Assembly: GCF_004801305.1 (NCBI RefSeq)
Contig: NZ_SSOD01000001.1
Span: forward strand, 248,001-312,000
Source of the DNA: Pseudothauera rhizosphaerae
GTDB taxonomy: Bacteria > Pseudomonadota > Gammaproteobacteria > Burkholderiales > Rhodocyclaceae
Length of the DNA stretch: 64,000 nucleotides
Reading direction: 5' to 3'
Shown here in pieces: positions 3,085 to 30,258 of the stretch; within the stretch, counting starts at the first letter, position 1; every line of letters starts with the position of its first letter. Both the position numbers and the translations under genes were made by a program. The notes beneath the pieces are model-generated. The model worked only from the letters and a program-made list of their open reading frames with translations, did not search any database and was not told the DNA's origin.

Positions 3085-4140
3085 TCAGACGCTGTTCTTG
3101 GCCTTGAAGTCGGCAAGCAGCTTCTGCCAGTAGGGCTCGTTGGGCTGTTCGCGGACCAGGCCCTGCAGGGCCTTCCGGTAGAGGTCGAGGTTCACCGCGC
3201 CGTCGATGCTGCGCCCCTTGGCCTCGATGAAGCCGCTGCCGTCCATGACGGTCCAGAACTGGCGCAGGCCCTTCAGGTAGGGGTCGGTGCTGTTGTCCTT
3301 GTAGGGGTCGTAGAAGTCCGTTTCCAGCGTGGCGCGGTCGATGCGCACGTACTTGGCGAGCACGTCCAGCGTGCCTTCCCGGTTCTCGGCGGCGTACTTC
3401 TCGGCGCGCAGGATGGCGCGCAGGAACTTCTCGCTGACCACCGGATCGGCCTTGCCGCCGACGATGAGCCGGCAGCACACGTGGGACGGGTAGAGTTCGT
3501 GGGAGTAGAAGACGATCTTCATGCCTTCCTTCTCCGCGCGCAGGTCGTGGGGCCCCCAGGTCGCGCCCACGTCCACCTGGCCGGACTTGACCGCCGCGGT
3601 GACGGCCGGCGCGTTCTTCAGTTCGAAGATCTCCACGTCCTTCTTCCAGTCCAGCCCGGCGTCCTGCAGCGCGCCGCGCAGGATGGCGTCCACGGTGGAC
3701 AGGCGCACGGTGGCGATCTTCTTGCCCTTGAGGTCGGCCGGGGTCTTGATCGTGGCCGCCACTTCCGGCCTGGCGATGAAGGACGAACCACCGCTGGTGA
3801 TGCCGCCGATGATCTTGATGTCGGCGCCCTTGGAGATGTGGATCAGCGGCGCGGAGGTGCCGAAGGCCCCCACGTCGATCTTGTTCGAGGTCAGCGCATG
3901 GAGCCCGTCGGCGGAGTTGTGGAACTCGATCAGCTCCACCTCCAGCCCTTCCTGGGCGTAAAAGCCCTTCTCCTGGGCGATCATGAACTTGCCGTGGGTG
4001 CTGATGGGCAGGAAGCCCACCTTGAGGGTGTCGGCCGCCGCCGCCGTGCTCCCGCCCAGGGCCAGAACCAGCGCCAGCGCGTAACAAGCGCGGCGGACGG
4101 CGGAAAGCCGCACCGCGATACCTTTCTTGTGATTGTTCAT
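3085..4140 (-). CDS. ABC transporter substrate-binding protein (SsuA/NrtA/ThiY-like)
   Basis: Periplasmic receptor of 351 residues from the NMT1/SsuA superfamily, which binds nitrate, aliphatic sulfonates, taurine or pyrimidine-like ligands. A signal peptide covers roughly residues 1-36 (hydrophobic LALVLALGG, cleavage near TAAAAD). The mature part has the typical start [13 protein letters not shown] and the IGGITSGG and ATWGPHD stretches. No cognate permease or ATPase is adjacent. The upstream neighbours are the TctA/TctB proteins of a different transporter class, so the receptor may share components encoded elsewhere. The ligand cannot be read from the sequence. Confidence 0.82.
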
Positions 4141-4194
4141 GCTGTTTCTCCTGAAAAGATCGGGGGACGCCCGGCGCAGCGGAGCGCGGGCGCC

Positions 4195-5700
4195 TCAGTC
4201 CTGGAAGGCCACCTCGCGGGTGGCGCGAATGCTGGGCAGAACCATCACCAGGACCAGCGCCAGGGCCATCAGCAGCAGGGTCAGGCTCAGGGGGCGGGTG
4301 AAGAACACCGTGGCGTCGCCGCGGGACAGCAGCATGGCGCGGCGCAGGTTCTCTTCCATCATCGGGCCGAGCACGAAGCCCAGCAGCAGCGGCGCGGGCT
4401 CGCAGCGCAGGCGGATGAAGAGGTAGCCGAGGAAACCGAAGCCCACCATCAGCAGCACATCGAACAGGCTGTTGTTCACGCTGAACACGCCGATGCAGCA
4501 CAAGAGCAGGATGGCCGGGTAGAGCATGCGGTAGGGCACCGCCAGCAGCCTCACCCATACGCCGATCAGCGGCAGGTTGAGGAGCAGCAGCAGGGCGTTG
4601 CCGATCCACATGCTGGCGATCAGGCCCCAGAACAGCTCCGGGCGCTCGCCCATGACCTGCGGACCGGGCACGATGCCGTGGATCATCATCGCGCCGATCA
4701 TCAGCGCCATCACCGCGTTGGACGGCAGGCCCATGACCAGCAGCGGGATGAAGGAAGTCTGCGCGCCCGCGTTGTTGGCCGACTCCGGCCCGGCCACGCC
4801 TTCGATGGCGCCCTTGCCGAAGCGGGAACGGTCCCGGGCGAGGCGCTTTTCCACCATGTAGGACGTAAACGACCCCAGCATGGCGCCGCCGCCCGGCAGC
4901 ACGCCAAGAACCGTACCCAACGTGGTGCCGCGCAGTACCGGCTTCCAGGAGCGGGCATAGTCCTCGCGCGTCGGCAGCACGCGGCCGACGCCGCGGATAG
5001 CCACCTCGCGGGATTTCTGCCTTTCCCGCTCCAGGTTGTAGATGATCTCGCCCAGGCCGAAGATGCCCATGGAAATCACGACGAAACTGATGCCGTCCGC
5101 GAGCTGGGGCATACCGAAGGTGAAGCGCTCCTCGCCGGAATTCACGTCGATGCCGACGAGGCCCAGCAGCAGGCCCAGCAGCGTCATCGCCACCGCCTTG
5201 AGGATGTCCCCCTGGGCCAGCACCACCGCGGCGATCAGCCCCAGCACCATCAGGGAGAAGTACTCCGCCGGGCCGAACTTCAGCGCCAGCTCCGCCAGCG
5301 GCGCGGCCGCCGCGGCGATCACCAGCGTGGCCACGGTGCCGGCGAAGAACGACCCGATGGCGGCGATGCCCAGCGCCGCGCCGGCGCGCCCGTTCTTCGC
5401 CATGGCGTGGCCGTCGATGCAGGTCACCAGCGACGACGACTCGCCGGGCAGGTTCACCAGGATCGCCGCCGTGGACCCGCCGTACTGGGCACCGTAGTAG
5501 ATGCCCGCCAGCATGATCAGCGCGGCCGTGGGCGGCAGGCCGTAGGTGATGGGCAGCAGCATGGCGATGGTCGCCACCGGCCCGATCCCCGGCAGCACGC
5601 CCACCAGGGTGCCCAGCGTGACGCCGGCAAAGCAGTACAGCACGTTGCTCCAGGTCAGCGCCGAGGCGAAGCCGACCTGCAGGTGCTCCAGCAGTTCCAT
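4195..5700 (-). CDS. tctA: TctA family large permease of a tripartite tricarboxylate transporter
   Basis: Large membrane subunit (501 residues, about 12 hydrophobic segments) of a TctABC-type secondary transporter for tricarboxylates or other carboxylates. Seen: the signature GTLVGVLPGIGPVATIAMLL near residues 29-48, the conserved GGSTAAILVNLPGESSSLVT near 74-93, and a second GVLPGGGAMLGSF loop that mirrors the first half. It starts 10 bp after tctB. In this block the partner receptor (TctC/Bug type) is not directly adjacent; two such receptors occur at 8272 and 11078. Confidence 0.93.
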   Translation of the reverse strand: MELLEHLQVGFASALTWSNVLYCFAGVTLGTLVGVLPGIGPVATIAMLLPITYGLPPTAALIMLAGIYYGAQYGGSTAAILVNLPGESSSLVTCIDGHAMAKNGRAGAALGIAAIGSFFAGTVATLVIAAAAAPLAELALKFGPAEYFSLMVLGLIAAVVLAQGDILKAVAMTLLGLLLGLVGIDVNSGEERFTFGMPQLADGISFVVISMGIFGLGEIIYNLERERQKSREVAIRGVGRVLPTREDYARSWKPVLRGTTLGTVLGVLPGGGAMLGSFTSYMVEKRLARDRSRFGKGAIEGVAGPESANNAGAQTSFIPLLVMGLPSNAVMALMIGAMMIHGIVPGPQVMGERPELFWGLIASMWIGNALLLLLNLPLIGVWVRLLAVPYRMLYPAILLLCCIGVFSVNNSLFDVLLMVGFGFLGYLFIRLRCEPAPLLLGFVLGPMMEENLRRAMLLSRGDATVFFTRPLSLTLLLMALALVLVMVLPSIRATREVAFQD

Positions 5701-23742: not shown

Positions 23743-24759
23743 ATGGACAACCAACCCACCCCCCCGCCCCGCAAGGTCAAGCAGCCCCCCATCCTCTTCG
23801 CCCGGACCCAGGCCGTTCTCGAAAGACTCAGCGCCCGGCTGGGCGGGCCGGTCGTCACCTACTGGAACAATCCCCGCGGCTCCGTGTGCCCGGACGACGT
23901 GGTCGCCCTCTACGAAGTGCTCGAACGGATCGGCCACCACGACACGGTCTTCCTCTTCATCAAGTCCGACGGCGGCAGCGGCCAGGTGGCCCTGCGCTTC
24001 GTCAACCTGCTGCGCCAGCACTGCCGCCGGCTGGTGGCCCTGGTGCCCCTGGAATGCGCCTCCGCCGCCACCATGATCACCCTGGGCGCCGACGAAATCC
24101 GCATGGGGCCGACGGCCTATCTCACCGCCGTGGACACCTCGCTGAACCACGCCCTGTCGCCGCTGGACCGGGACAACGACCGGGTCAGCGTGAGTCTGGA
24201 CGAACTGAACCGGGTGATCCGCCGCTGGCGCAACGAGCAGCACGACGCCACCGACAACCCCTACAAGAGCCTTTTCGAGTACGTGCATCCCCTGGTGATC
24301 GGCGCCGTGGACCGGGCGGAATCCCTGTCCGTGATGCTGTGCCGCGAACTGCTCGCCTACCACATCAGCGACGAAGCCCGCGCCCACGAAATCGCCGCCA
24401 CGCTGAACTCCAAATACCCGTCCCACAGCTACCCGATCCTGCTCAACGAAGCCCGCAATATCGGCCTGAACGCCGTCCCCCTCGCCCCCGAGGTCAACAC
24501 CCAGCTCATCGAACTCAACGGCCTATACAGCGAAATGGGGCAGAAGGCGACCACGGACTTCGACGAATTCCGCGCCCACGGCAACGAAATCCTGAACATC
24601 CTCGAATGCAAGGACCTGCAGGTCTTCTACCAGCACGACAAGGACTGGTTCTACCGCAGCGAGGAACGGCGCTGGATCACCATGAACGACGACAGCAGTT
24701 GGCGCCGCATCGAAAACGTCCGCGGCCGACTGCGGCGGACGATCATGCATGTGGCGTGA
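23743..24759 (+). CDS. SDH-family Clp/SppA-like serine proteinase
   Basis: Protein of 338 residues with a ClpP/crotonase-like fold of the serine dehydrogenase proteinase family. Seen: the strand-turn VFLFIKSDGGSGQVALRF near residues 69-86 and the nucleophile motif CASAATMITLGADEI with Ser107 as the candidate catalytic serine. No signal peptide is visible, so it is probably cytosolic, unlike SppA. The ATG at 23743 (MDNQPTPPPRKVKQPP) is chosen because a diverged copy of exactly this N-terminus occurs at 29184. It stands alone, 201 bp after the ATC-hydrolase gene, at the left border of the variable region. Confidence 0.78.
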   Translation: MDNQPTPPPRKVKQPPILFARTQAVLERLSARLGGPVVTYWNNPRGSVCPDDVVALYEVLERIGHHDTVFLFIKSDGGSGQVALRFVNLLRQHCRRLVALVPLECASAATMITLGADEIRMGPTAYLTAVDTSLNHALSPLDRDNDRVSVSLDELNRVIRRWRNEQHDATDNPYKSLFEYVHPLVIGAVDRAESLSVMLCRELLAYHISDEARAHEIAATLNSKYPSHSYPILLNEARNIGLNAVPLAPEVNTQLIELNGLYSEMGQKATTDFDEFRAHGNEILNILECKDLQVFYQHDKDWFYRSEERRWITMNDDSSWRRIENVRGRLRRTIMHVA

Positions 24760-25068
24760 GTATGCTTGAATGACGGACCATGCAGGACTTAGGCATAATC
24801 CCTTGGCCTACTACAGGGCAAATGATTCTGATCCCTTTGACAGGTCTGAGACTCCTGCGAGGCACGGTGCGCCGCACGCCGAGCGGGTGCAGGGCATCCC
24901 CAACGGAATGGCGGATGTAAACGTGATAGGCGTCATGCAGCGCGACACACGGCTAGATGAAACCTGTGAAATCAATATTAGACTCCTGCAAGGCACGGCG
25001 CCCCTCACACGGAGCGGATGCGGGGCATCTCCAACGGAATGGTGGATGTTAAACGTTAGGCTATCCAA
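24760..25068. other. non-coding stretch with a duplicated ~85-bp sequence, left part of the cassette region
   Basis: No convincing gene. Base composition drops here compared with the flanks. A CTTAGGCATAATC at about 24788-24800 resembles the start of an integron cassette. Two imperfect direct copies of a sequence beginning GACTCCTGC follow. A possible plus-strand frame at 24770-25072 is mostly built from this repeat and is not credible as a protein. Confidence 0.5.
24849..25062. repeat. two imperfect direct copies (~80 bp each) ending in an attC-like AGGC box
   Basis: Copy 1 (about 24849-24931) and copy 2 (about 24982-25062) share GACTCCTGC, AGGCACGG, GGGCATC, CCAACGGAATGG and GGATGT blocks in the same order. 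Copy 1 ends in AAACGTGATAGGC and copy 2 in AAACGTTAGGC. The GTTAGGC of copy 2 matches an integron R' recombination box, and the next small gene starts just after it. The arms do not fold into a full attC that I can see. Confidence 0.6.
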
Positions 25069-25233
25069 ATGATCGACGACGTTGTTGAGTTTGCGGTTGC
25101 AGCCGCAATTGATGTCGAAGCCGAGAAGGCCGCGAAGAGACATCGTTGGGTGCGTATCCTCCGAGCAATCATCGGTTTTCTCCTTATTGTGACTATCGCC
25201 GGTCTCATTTACCTTATGTTCAAGTACTCATGA
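25069..25233 (+). CDS. small single-pass membrane protein (54 aa), cassette-borne
   Basis: Small ORF of 54 codons, not similar to anything I recognise. It starts MIDDVVEFAVAAAIDVEAEK and continues with a basic KRHRWVR patch before one hydrophobic segment IIGFLLIVTIAGLIYLMF, giving an inside N-terminus and a short outside KYS tail. It lies between a GTTAGGC box at 25056 and the attC at 25280-25348, the usual layout of a gene cassette with its own short ORF. Codon use is less GC-biased than that of its neighbours, which supports recent acquisition. Confidence 0.6.
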   Translation: MIDDVVEFAVAAAIDVEAEKAAKRHRWVRILRAIIGFLLIVTIAGLIYLMFKYS

Positions 25234-25279
25234 GCACTTTGCCGTTGTGCTGGCACCTTTCCTCTATGGGCAGCCATCA

Positions 25280-25348
25280 GCCTAACCCTGCAGTCAAGCC
25301 GACCGTCAAAAGCTACGCTTTTGCCGTCGGCATACTTCCACGTTAAAC
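25280..25348 (+). other. integron attC recombination site
   Basis: A 69-bp site with all expected parts: R'' GCCTAAC at 25280-25286, L'' AAGCCGAC at 25296-25303, a central stem CAAAAGC/GCTTTTG (25307-25313 and 25317-25323) with a 3-nt loop, L' GTCGGC at 25326-25331, and R' GTTAAAC at 25342-25348. The two halves are complementary with unpaired extra bases, as needed for folding of the bottom strand. The cassette carrying the RelA/SpoT-like gene begins at the R' crossover point. Confidence 0.8.
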
Positions 25349-25364
25349 GTCATCAGGAAAGACC

Positions 25365-26396
25365 ATGACTTGGACAGTTCCAGAGCATAGCAAGAGTGAA
25401 GTTGATCGAGCCGGAAAATTGCTCACTACCGAGGGCGTTTATGAGGCTGATCTTCAAAACGCATTAACAATTATTAACAATTGGCGCGCTTCCCACAGCT
25501 TCCCGCTCAATACCTTTCAAGTCAGTTTGCGGACTAAAGCCAGGCGGATAGATGACCAGGTATTGGTTGCCCAGCGCATCAAGCGATTGAGCTCTATTGA
25601 ACTGAAGCTCTCGCGCTTCCCAACGATGAAAGTATCTCAAATGCAGGACATTGGGGGATGTCGCGCTGTCCTAAAAAATATTGCTCATGTCAGAGAACTG
25701 GAGCAGTCGTACCGTAAGTCTTCAATTAAACATAAGGCTCTGAGAACGGATGACTACATATCGGCACCGAAGGCCTCTGGCTACAGAGGCATCCATCTGA
25801 TTTACAGATACTTCAGTGACCGCAGTGACAGTTACAACGGGCTGTTAATTGAGATACAGATGCGCTCTATCCTGCAGCATGCCTGGGCTACAGCGGTGGA
25901 AACAGTTGGAACCTTCTTGAAGCAGTCTCTAAAGTCGAGCCAAGGGCATGACGAGTGGCTTAGATTTTTTGTTGTCATGAGCTCCGCCATTGCTCTTAGA
26001 GAAAAGTCCACAACCGTTCCAGGGACATCGACAACCCCAAGCGAGGTAAAGGCGGAGCTGAGAAAGCTCTCAACATCTCTTGATGTTAGGAGGCGTCTGC
26101 AAGCTTATGGAGATACGCTAAAGGCACTAGAAGAGACGACCACTGTTGATGGTCAATACTTCTTGATGGCCCTAGATCCGCAGGCCGACACCGTTACGAT
26201 CCGCAGCTATCGACGCGCCGATCTTGACAGAGCTGCCAAAGACTATCTCACAGTTGAAAAATCACTCGACGAGGCTGCGGGTGCAGAGGCGGTACTCGTA
26301 TCTGTCGACTCAATCGCGGCTCTGAAGAAAGCTTATCCAAACTACTTTTTGGACACACGAGCCTTCCTTGCAGCGCTTGAGCAGGCCATCAAATGA
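25365..26396 (+). CDS. RelA/SpoT-domain (alarmone synthetase-like) protein in a gene cassette
   Basis: Protein of 343 residues with a nucleotidyltransferase domain of the RelA/SpoT synthetase type. Seen: MQDIGGCRAVL near 93-103 (usually DIAGVR), the nucleotide-binding DDYISAPKASGYRGIHLIY near 129-147, and EIQMRSILQHAWATAVE near 163-179. The HD hydrolase, TGS and ACT domains of long RSH enzymes are absent. About 130 C-terminal residues form a second region I do not recognise. It could make (p)ppGpp-like alarmones, or be a toxic alarmone synthetase that pyrophosphorylates ATP or tRNA (toxSAS/CapRel-type). It begins 17 bp after an attC, and its stop is followed directly by a TCTAACAATTCAT attC start. 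Low-GC codon use marks it as foreign. Confidence 0.85.
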   Translation: MTWTVPEHSKSEVDRAGKLLTTEGVYEADLQNALTIINNWRASHSFPLNTFQVSLRTKARRIDDQVLVAQRIKRLSSIELKLSRFPTMKVSQMQDIGGCRAVLKNIAHVRELEQSYRKSSIKHKALRTDDYISAPKASGYRGIHLIYRYFSDRSDSYNGLLIEIQMRSILQHAWATAVETVGTFLKQSLKSSQGHDEWLRFFVVMSSAIALREKSTTVPGTSTTPSEVKAELRKLSTSLDVRRRLQAYGDTLKALEETTTVDGQYFLMALDPQADTVTIRSYRRADLDRAAKDYLTVEKSLDEAAGAEAVLVSVDSIAALKKAYPNYFLDTRAFLAALEQAIK

Positions 26397-26398
26397 CG

Positions 26399-26413
26399 TC
26401 TAACAATTCATAT
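26399..26413 (+). other. interrupted attC site (left half)
   Basis: GTCTAACAATTCAT directly after the RelA/SpoT-like stop matches the R'' end of many cassette attC sites. The expected AAGCCGAC arm is replaced after ATTCAT by sequence belonging to an IS110/IS1111-type remnant. The other half of the site is not visible downstream, so cassette excision is probably no longer possible. Confidence 0.6.
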
Positions 26414-26937
26414 ATGGACTCCCCCGTAAATCAAGTCTGATCGTGGTTTTGACTTTCCGGGGTGAATCACCTGCAGTCGTATATCCGGCATCTGGTGTGG
26501 GTTCTGCATGACCCGTGCCGACATGGAATCTGCCCGCGAAGCGCCAATCGTTACAAGCGGCTGCTGGAGAGCCGGAAGAGTTATCGGCGTCGTTTCGTAT
26601 GGGTGTGGCCCGGTTTGCCATGATGAGCGATCAGTCTCGACGCAAGGGTGAGGAAGGAACGGTGAGCCGATCAGGCTGCGATGGCGAAGGCGGTACGTTC
26701 GAGTTTCCTGTTCGGACGAGGTTGGGGGTTGCCATAGGGCGCGTGGTCACGCAGCACGGCGTAGCAGATACGGGCGAGTTTGTTCGCCAGCGCGCAGGCG
26801 GCTTTGTTGTGGTTGGTGCGTTGCTGCACCCCGGTGACCCAGGCGCGCAAGCGATCCAGCGGCCGACTCGCGTTGCGGGCCAGCACCGCAGCCCGCAACA
26901 CGGCCCGGGCGCCATGGGTCAGCCGCATCCTCAATAG
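26413..26937 (-). mobile_element. IS110/IS1111-type insertion sequence remnant
   Basis: Leftward remnant containing the 3' end of a transposase gene plus the following non-coding end. The left boundary is placed where the attC is broken (around ATATATGGACTCCCCC). The right boundary is unclear because the 5' part of the transposase is missing. IS1111-attC elements are known to insert into attC sites, which fits the position. Confidence 0.6.
26671..26934 (-). pseudogene. truncated IS110-family transposase, C-terminal fragment
   Basis: An 87-residue fragment matching the C-terminal end of IS110/IS1111 transposases (RuvC-like DEDD plus transposase_20 class). It has GARAVLRAAVLARNASRPLD, a WVTGVQQRTNHNKAACALAN stretch and KLARICYAVLRDHAPYG near the end. 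The N-terminal DEDD catalytic part and most of the transposase_20 domain are missing; upstream sequence from 26938 does not continue the protein. Not functional. Confidence 0.75.
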
Positions 26938-27171
26938 TCCGCCCTGAACAATTCCGTTGTCAGCCGCAGGCAGGTCGGTGATCGACTGGAGCGGGGCTCA
27001 GTGCGGCGATGACCGCGTGCATGGACAGCCCGAATCGGGCGCATAAAAGCCGCAGCGCGGACAGGATCAGGGGACAAAAGGGGTCAGTGTCATCTGAGCT
27101 TCTAGAGTTTTGAATGCCAAGGTCCTCCTTCTAATAATCCCTCCCACTATCACCTGACAGGGAGCACGAAC
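26938..27171. other. gene-free stretch right of the IS remnant
   Basis: I see no credible gene. It contains an AGGGGACAAAAGGGGTCAG motif near 27068-27086 of the kind often found at transposon scars; a related AATAGGGGTCAGCGTGG lies at 27761. A good Shine-Dalgarno (CAGGGAG) precedes the ATG at 27172. With 26397-26937 it forms a ~775-bp segment without an intact gene. Confidence 0.45.
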
Positions 27172-27690
27172 ATGCCCACCTCCTCGGCCGCCAATGCATG
27201 TCTCTTGTCACCGTCACTCGCCGGCCCCATCGCGACGGCAGCCGGCGTCGCGGTCGCTTTCGTGGCGCTGCTTGCCGCACGCTGGTACTACAAGCGAACC
27301 CTAATCGGCAAGGTTCATGATCGGCTTCTGGAGCTGAACAAACTGGCGGTTCAGCATCCCAAGGTGGCGAAGGCGTTCTTCGACCAGTCCCACCGAGACA
27401 CGCCATATTTCGTGCCGATAGGTATCCCGCGGGACGAGGGCTACTATGCACTTCGCGGTTATGTCCTCTTCCGGCTCAACATCTATGAAGAGGTCTTCTT
27501 TGCCACCCAGGGTATCTTTGCAAGCACTACCGACGACGGTCGTGCCTGGCAGCGATACATCAAGCAGGGGTTCCGGCATCCGCGGGTCCGTGAACTCTTC
27601 GACGAAGAGCTCGATCAGTTCGGACACGCCTTCATCCGATTCATCCACTTCAATGAATTGCCCGGTGGCGAGAAGTATGTCGAGCACTAG
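27172..27690 (+). CDS. hypothetical protein with one N-terminal membrane segment
   Basis: Protein of 172 residues that I cannot assign. A hydrophobic segment IATAAGVAVAFVALLAARWY spans about residues 20-39 and is followed by KRTLIGKVHDRLLELNKLAV and a soluble part rich in aromatic residues (DEGYYALRGYVLFRLNIYEE). The start is supported by CAGGGAG 8 bp upstream. The overall plan, one membrane anchor plus a 130-residue cytosolic domain, resembles small hypothetical proteins common in genomic islands. The opposite-strand frame at 27301-27750 is less likely. Confidence 0.55.
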   Translation: MPTSSAANACLLSPSLAGPIATAAGVAVAFVALLAARWYYKRTLIGKVHDRLLELNKLAVQHPKVAKAFFDQSHRDTPYFVPIGIPRDEGYYALRGYVLFRLNIYEEVFFATQGIFASTTDDGRAWQRYIKQGFRHPRVRELFDEELDQFGHAFIRFIHFNELPGGEKYVEH

Positions 27691-30057: not shown

Positions 30058-30081
30058 CATGCAGCGGCGGCCCGGGGACTA

Positions 30082-30193
30082 TTAACCCGGCAATCAAATA
30101 CCGTTCGGGCTGAGCTTGTCGAAGCCCGGTTGAGACCAACGCCCTTCGACAAGCTCAGGGCGAACGGTGTTACTTATTTCATTGCCGGGTTAA
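30082..30193. repeat. REPIN/MITE-like palindromic element, copy B (complete)
   Basis: A 112-bp element with perfect 13-bp terminal inverted repeats TTAACCCGGCAAT and ATTGCCGGGTTAA. Inside are two facing arms, CCGTTCGGGCTGAGCTTGTC (from 30101) and CCCTTCGACAAGCTCAGGGC (from 30142). It lies between the hydrolase and the PfpI-like gene. It is the best-preserved copy in the window. Confidence 0.88.
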
Positions 30194-30258
30194 TAAGTAC
30201 GGCAGTGCCTTCGGGCTTTCGGCCTGACGTTTCCATCAACCGGGCTGGATGCCTCACC

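Follow-up and report, generated by a model that had tools for sequence, protein, structure and literature searches.

What is a gene for a stand-alone RelA/SpoT-type protein doing directly behind an integron recombination site, and how did it come to lie there? The question is raised by a 64,000-nucleotide stretch of DNA (the window; positions 248001–312000 of contig C1 in the source genome G000, 4.6 Mb in 45 contigs), in which an initial annotation, made from the letters alone, saw a cassette-borne alarmone synthetase and a possible mobile defense or toxin module. We consider it very probable that the gene encodes a self-inhibited, single-chain CapRel toxin–antitoxin that would be triggered by phage, that it was brought in by an integron cassette, and that the attC site of this cassette was later cut by an IS110-family element. 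The features of the locus are collected in Table 1.

Table 1. Features of the capRel-like locus, in window coordinates
Feature	Position	Strand	Remarks
R'-type box GTTAGGC	25055–25061	+	Left boundary of the 54-aa cassette
54-aa ORF	25069–25233	+	One membrane span by eye; separate upstream cassette
attC	25280–25348	+	R'' GCCTAAC 25280–25286, R' GTTAAAC 25342–25348; covariance models R1 and R2, and fold
AGGA, resembling a ribosome-binding site	25355–25358	+	6 nt 5' of the ATG; read from the sequence
capRel-like gene	25365–26396	+	343 aa plus stop
toxSYNTH (pyrophosphokinase) core	25563–25919	+	Residues 67–185, including R71, R100 and Y140
Pseudo-zinc-finger sensor core	26118–26285	+	About residues 252–307
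YPNY, the YXXY neutralization motif	26334–26345	+	Residues 324–327; maps to Y352/Y355 of CapRel-SJ46
attC remnant of the CapRel cassette	26398–26411	+	R'' and start of L''
IS110-family insertion-sequence remnant	26412–26934	-	Outer limits uncertain
Transposase C-terminal fragment (IS110-family remnant)	26671–26934	-	NCBIfam NF033542

Rfam gave no match in the window at gathering scores, and we therefore built attC covariance models for this analysis. The first, R1, comprised 17 sites, nine from the source genome and eight from its genus-mates G001, G003, G004 and G005, which were picked by box pattern and fold; the pattern was strict at first and later relaxed, and candidates within coding sequence were left out. 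The second, R2, comprised 67 sites, and the window's own site was excluded from both. Nine of the 16 pairs predicted in the R1 alignment showed double changes, as the paired boxes covary. With the calibrated R1, the fold-ready attC read by the initial annotation scored 44.8 bits (E = 9.6e-8) and was alone above noise in the 64 kb, the next match reaching 9.7 bits (E = 4.8); with R2, over positions 24700–27200, it scored 39.0 bits and the next match 6.6. Its fold as single-strand DNA (z = -3.9) was matched by 1 of 200 shuffles. Judged by eye, the closest of eight aligned sites, C8:2250–2318 of the source genome, has the loop and the R' context in common with it.

This attC, with R''/R' and paired L''/L' boxes, is present to the left of the CapRel unit and belongs to the preceding, 54-aa cassette. 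The ATG of the capRel-like gene lies close behind its R' box, as had been described, but at a distance of 16 nt, not 17. Within an array, the left R' of a cassette is expected to complement the cassette's own R''. The left edge of the 54-aa unit, first placed at 25056, fits an R'-type box that, in reverse complement, agrees with the attC's R'' in 7 of 7 positions; the boundary match is 6 of 7 for the CapRel unit and 7 of 7 for the CapRel units of two other bacteria described below (L118 and L216). Complementarity was 7 of 7 in seven of the nine units of the L118 array, and 7, 5, 7, 6 and 7 of 7 in the five units taken from the array on contig C8 of the source genome, some of which span further sites. 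Upstream of the box at 25055–25061 we found no canonical attC (best R2 match 6.5 bits, E = 1.1). On the other side, the initial annotation had placed the start of a second attC immediately after the stop codon. An attC start sequence is indeed there (GTCTAACAATTCAT, which in 13 of 14 positions agrees with the first bases of the attC at L205:5514, also in the source genome), but it is a 14-bp remnant followed by that of the IS110-family element, and a complete attC of the gene's own is absent 3' of it. Taken jointly with the CapRel mechanism and the IS110-family cut, we hold with considerable confidence that the gene arrived as an integron cassette made up of a unit from 25343, the gene and its own attC, behind the 54-aa cassette and away from the integrase. 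The GC content of the capRel-like ORF is 49.3%, in comparison with 68.9% in the window, where the lowest value among 253 overlapping 1-kb stretches is 49.4%. An empty site was sought in the genus-mate G002 and none was shown in the 14 kb compared; G002 has the upstream SDH-protease gene (82%), and otherwise just short repeats are common to the two.

The 54-aa membrane protein had been noted on the cassette ahead of the synthetase. It is encoded on a separate cassette, and a tblastn search over the fetched loci gave no link to CapRel; the search returned an overlapping stretch of the source genome and one match at E = 0.30, and the ORF belonged to no family in Pfam, NCBIfam, PADLOC or PHROGs at the limits used. 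Upstream of it are two 73-bp direct repeats (24849–24921 and 24980–25052, 85% identical), followed by CGTGATAGG and CGTTAGGC, and the second repeat abuts the 54-aa cassette. We considered the repeats as attC or attI sites; their fold was no better than that of shuffles, and real covariance matches were absent. Among 120 other genomes of the family, 4 had matches, of 26–37 bases only. They are possibly a degenerate attI or another recombination site, and not canonical attCs. Elsewhere in the window, a 116-bp stretch (30080–30195) is bounded by 7-bp ends that match each other and encloses a strong inverted repeat. A 92% copy of about 120 bp in G002 (L202:7148–7266) marks it as a dispersed repeat.

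The initial annotation noted that no integrase gene is in the window. This is correct for the window's stretch of C1, but a full intI is found on contig C8 (7247–8191; 471 bits, cut-off 265), the only contig with an intI over the cut-off, and attCs extend from it to the contig end. R1 gave at least 23 attC matches in the source genome, 22 of them at E ≤ 0.005, nine being training sites and one the window's; the count is a lower bound, as 150 of 5774 first-look candidates were scored. Integrases over the cut-off were present in all six genomes of the genus searched, the source genome included. What the window holds is a small group of cassettes at a distance from the integrase. We also observed a degraded second integron integrase with a stop (C5:6187–6708), near attCs at C5:1428–4630. 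In the C8 array (C8:1–8197, locus L092), three of the eight cassette ORFs scanned matched PADLOC profiles (mad2, E = 4e-17; HEC-07, E = 5e-13; PDC-M02A, E = 4e-5), and a 353-aa ORF (3983–5044) resembles an IS110-type transposase by eye.

The 343-aa product carries the alarmone-synthetase motifs DDYISAPKASGYRG, EIQMRS and QHAWA, and Pfam finds RelA_SpoT alone (residues 70–176); the hydrolase domain is absent, in agreement with the initial reading. The C-terminal region, which that reading did not recognize, proved to be the antitoxin/sensor part of CapRel by PDB sequence and fold matches. The PDB sequence search returned the CapRel-SJ46 structures 7ztb and 9erv (E = 8e-48, residues 7–337), then small alarmone synthetases from 7e-11 and over the core only, and FaRel2 as a weak match (E = 0.057). 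An AlphaFold2 model computed from 57 sequences (pLDDT 91.4, pTM 0.88) matched 7ztb best (Z = 26.8, 282 residues, rmsd 3.5, over residues 5–343); 9erv gave Z = 24.8 and the best synthetase, SAS1, Z = 15.2 over residues 34–215. The ranking was the same with Foldseek, where the rmsd to CapRel was near 10, which may reflect a different domain angle in the model. The full length of the protein matched the PADLOC profile PDC-S33 (E = 8e-127). CapRel-SJ46 matches it too, and PDC-S33 therefore acts as a CapRel profile; the literature searched did not name it. Sequence, model and fold match agree on a single chain with a toxSYNTH domain followed by a pseudo-zinc-finger antitoxin domain, and residues 240–343 contain no cysteine.

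The residues that matter in CapRel-SJ46, according to the accessible part of PMC9712102, are R79, R116, Y155, V338, L339, A341, A351, Y352 and Y355. In the window protein, the ATP-site arginines R79 and R116 correspond to R71 and R100, the G-loop tyrosine Y155 to Y140, the scaffold residues V338, L339 and A351 to V310, L311 and A323 (and A77 to A69), and the YXXY tyrosines Y352 and Y355 to Y324 and Y327; A341 is changed, to S313. Across 57 aligned homologues, R71, R100, Y140, V310, L311 and Y327 were invariant, and A323 and Y324 were kept in 56 and 55, respectively. The sensor core was the most variable part compared, with a mean identity to the window protein of 26%, whereas the synthetase core and the C-terminal segment reach 58% and 59%, respectively; a variable sensor core is also described for CapRel in the part of PMC9712102 available. 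Identity to CapRel-SJ46 is about 33–35% overall and just 11% in the sensor core, so the phage trigger of CapRel-SJ46 cannot be transferred to the window protein.

By sequence and predicted structure, then, the product is a CapRel and not a housekeeping small alarmone synthetase. An ordinary RelP/RelQ-type synthetase that makes (p)ppGpp and bears an unrelated extension at its C-terminus is highly improbable, for while Pfam RelA_SpoT and NCBIfam YjbM match the core and RelQ/RelP structures match about residues 27–215, the YjbM (RelQ) model is not passed (50.1 bits, cut-off 320), the match to CapRel spans the entire chain at a far better E-value and Z, and the autoinhibition residues are kept across the 57 homologues. 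The two outcomes that the initial annotation had named as able to overturn it, a failed covariance search for attC and a protein grouping with housekeeping synthetases, both turned out the other way. With the known CapRels (SJ46, of Salmonella phage SJ46, and CapRel-Ebc) the protein has in common the whole-chain homology, the fold, the ATP-site arginines, the G-loop tyrosine and the YXXY motif, as well as the cysteine-free C-terminal domain and the variable sensor core; it differs from them in its low identity and in being encoded on an integron cassette. The toxSYNTH domain is also shared with the bicistronic toxSAS systems FaRel2 and PhRel, whereas the gene in the window joins the toxin and antitoxin parts in a single chain.

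We scanned 170 homologue loci with the attC models, some of which overlap and some of which end close to the gene. The best 80 of at least 560 genome-collection matches were taken, together with 7 from relatives; a class sample supplied 9 and a phylum sample contributed 8 new ones (two partial), and 63 viral loci (one, L082, holding the gene end only) and 3 from plasmids completed the set. Defining a clear attC as one with E < 0.01 at the gene edge, we found clear sites at six further CapRel loci and a weak one at a seventh. They flank the gene on both sides in an Ideonella MAG (L118; R1, 38.7 and 44.3 bits) and in genome G327 (L216; R2), follow it in a Steroidobacter MAG (L119; R1, 27.6 bits, E = 0.007; the gene starts near the contig end), a Silanimonas MAG (L165; R1, 30.7 bits, E = 0.0015) and genome G593 (L231; covariance model), and precede it in Alcanivorax hongdengensis (L188; R1, 53.7 bits). 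The weak case, in genome G378 (L218; E = 0.2), is upstream. The sites of L118, L119, L165 and L188 are part of the R2 training set and match R2 by construction; the independent evidence for them is R1, whose training set holds none of them, and L216 and L231 are outside both sets. The gap between attC and gene is 9–18 nt at the window, L118, L119, L165, L188 and the upstream side of L216, whereas downstream the attC and the gene end share 17 nt in L216 and 23 nt in L231. At L212 an attC lies 1.1 kb from the gene and was not counted. The CapRel-like gene behind the weak attC-like site of L218 (789–1106) has a stop codon, and this is perhaps a decaying cassette copy.

These loci bear on whether the cassette context is accidental, the attCs adjoining the gene by chance and the gene moving by prophages and plasmids like other CapRels. 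Clear attCs are missing from 164 of the 170 loci, though some of these end near the gene, and the nearest relative, L121 (Luteimonas, 70%), has none and no integrase over the cut-off in its genome. At E < 0.1 the 63 viral loci yielded no attC (L026 gave a match at E = 0.61, inside the gene), and none of the three plasmid loci examined, from 98 matching records, gave a match; we do not claim an enrichment of genome over viral loci (4 of 80 and 0 of 63), the samples being overlapping, similarity-ranked and nonrandom. On the other hand, attC matches are rare in the window, 12 control loci of long RelA/SpoT genes gave none below E = 0.1 (best E = 0.18), attCs with boundary matches of 7 of 7 stand on both sides of the gene in L118 and L216, and integrases over the cut-off were found in all six cassette genomes tested (L118, L119, L165, L188, L216 and the weak L218). 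In L118 the integrase lies just 5' of the array (contig positions 407500–408438) and CapRel follows the third attC found downstream of it. Most of the homologue loci checked lack attC and the 54-aa cassette has no canonical attC at its left edge, two points that count against the cassette-borne CapRel that we prefer; an accidental context nevertheless has only a slim probability. As a separate observation, the second cassette after CapRel in L118 (6533–7408) encodes a kinase-like protein (PADLOC mad6, E = 6e-30; PD-T4-6, E = 5e-25), the sole PADLOC match among 10 ORFs scanned there, and the array thus holds two defense-like cassettes.

We mapped the cassette label on a second tree of 122 rows, on which the seven cassette copies need six changes of label, at least four of them forced by supported branches; such changes can be gains or losses. 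The label was hardly clustered, 37 of 500 shuffles needing as few changes. One supported group unites the window, L118 and L119 and has L121 nested within it; L165 and L188 are in different parts of a larger group, and L216 and L231 belong to a distant subfamily, to which the first tree also assigns L218. The second tree includes six minus-strand loci that are missing from the first, as well as L227, L228 and L230–L233, and has the internal stops of L218 and L228 entered as X. It leaves out L175 (three stops), L229, L234 and the long-branch L075, L214 and L071, and a large number of nearly identical viral loci are in neither tree. Its support is SH-aLRT only; the bootstrap of the first tree did not converge. 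With relatives in cassettes of several other bacteria, integrons are seemingly one of the ways in which CapRel spreads.

At the window, that route is probably closed. Of the attC that belonged to the CapRel cassette itself, 14 bp are left, the rest having been cut off by the IS110-family remnant, and because of this cut the copy is probably frozen at the locus. NF033542 matched the remnant over profile positions 285–342 of 343 (E = 2.3e-10; 40.1 bits, cut-off 140), and no second copy of the remnant was found in the source genome. The 87-aa IS110 fragment and its position at an attC end fit the IS1111-attC group, in an element truncated and too short to classify. The suggestion of a mobile module is strengthened by the relatives found in cassettes elsewhere, but the copy in the window, its attC destroyed, is probably immobile now. 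A related reading, compatible with the CapRel identity and different on present use, is that the cassette was captured once, is unexpressed and now functionless, and has been fixed by the insertion-sequence remnant. The broken attC agrees with it, promoter predictions at the capRel-like gene were no better than those for shuffles, so that the gene may be silent, and distal integron cassettes are often little expressed according to the available part of PMC12409362. Against it stand an intact frame of 343 codons with the key residues kept and the Shine–Dalgarno-like AGGA before the ATG; we regard a silent cassette as possible, if unlikely.

A CapRel kept functional would work by analogy with CapRel-SJ46, whose C-terminus shuts the protein until a phage protein opens it, tRNAs are then pyrophosphorylated and translation and phage production stop (PMC9712102, accessible part). 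In the resting state, the C-terminal pseudo-zinc-finger domain of the window protein would keep the toxSYNTH domain of the same chain inactive, with the YXXY motif plugging the ATP site. A phage protein binding to the C-terminal domain would open the molecule, and the opened enzyme would pyrophosphorylate tRNAs and stop translation, so that the infected cell would yield no phage. The gene for this putative defense would have come as an integron cassette and, its attC later cut by the IS110-family element, would probably have become fixed.

Both CapRel and antiphage cassettes in integrons have been described before; the new part is the recurrence of CapRel across integrons. Primary studies of antiphage integron cassettes were reportedly published by Darracq, Kieffer and Getz in 2025. 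Antiphage gene cassettes are known from both chromosomal and mobile integrons, in the part of PMC12409362 available, and those that it relates from Darracq, Kieffer and Getz resemble the window unit in being small, single-gene, defense-type systems beside an attC; the window unit differs in lying away from the integrase and in its broken attC. The accessible parts of PMC12409362, PMC12444791 and PMC13092281 contain no occurrence of CapRel, and the portions available of the literature on CapRel and integrons mention the two separately only. We found no report of CapRel as an integron cassette in the literature searched, though Darracq, Kieffer or Getz may mention one.

The locus illustrates clearly the probable freezing of a cassette by an insertion sequence, via loss of the cassette's recombination site. 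More broadly, we raise as a tentative idea that CapRel is regularly stored in and exchanged through integrons, having entered them at several separate places of the tree, including the deep subfamily of L216, L231 and, weakly, L218; integrase-driven exchange would swap phage sensors in a single step, and a fused toxin–antitoxin of one gene would fit a cassette. The repeated cassette CapRels (window, L118, L119, L165, L188, L216 and L231) form a ready gene set with differing sensor domains. Few bacterial immune proteins are understood down to their phage triggers and mechanism. CapRel is among them, and a cassette CapRel thereby supplies an effector of understood mechanism to the view of integrons as defense libraries.
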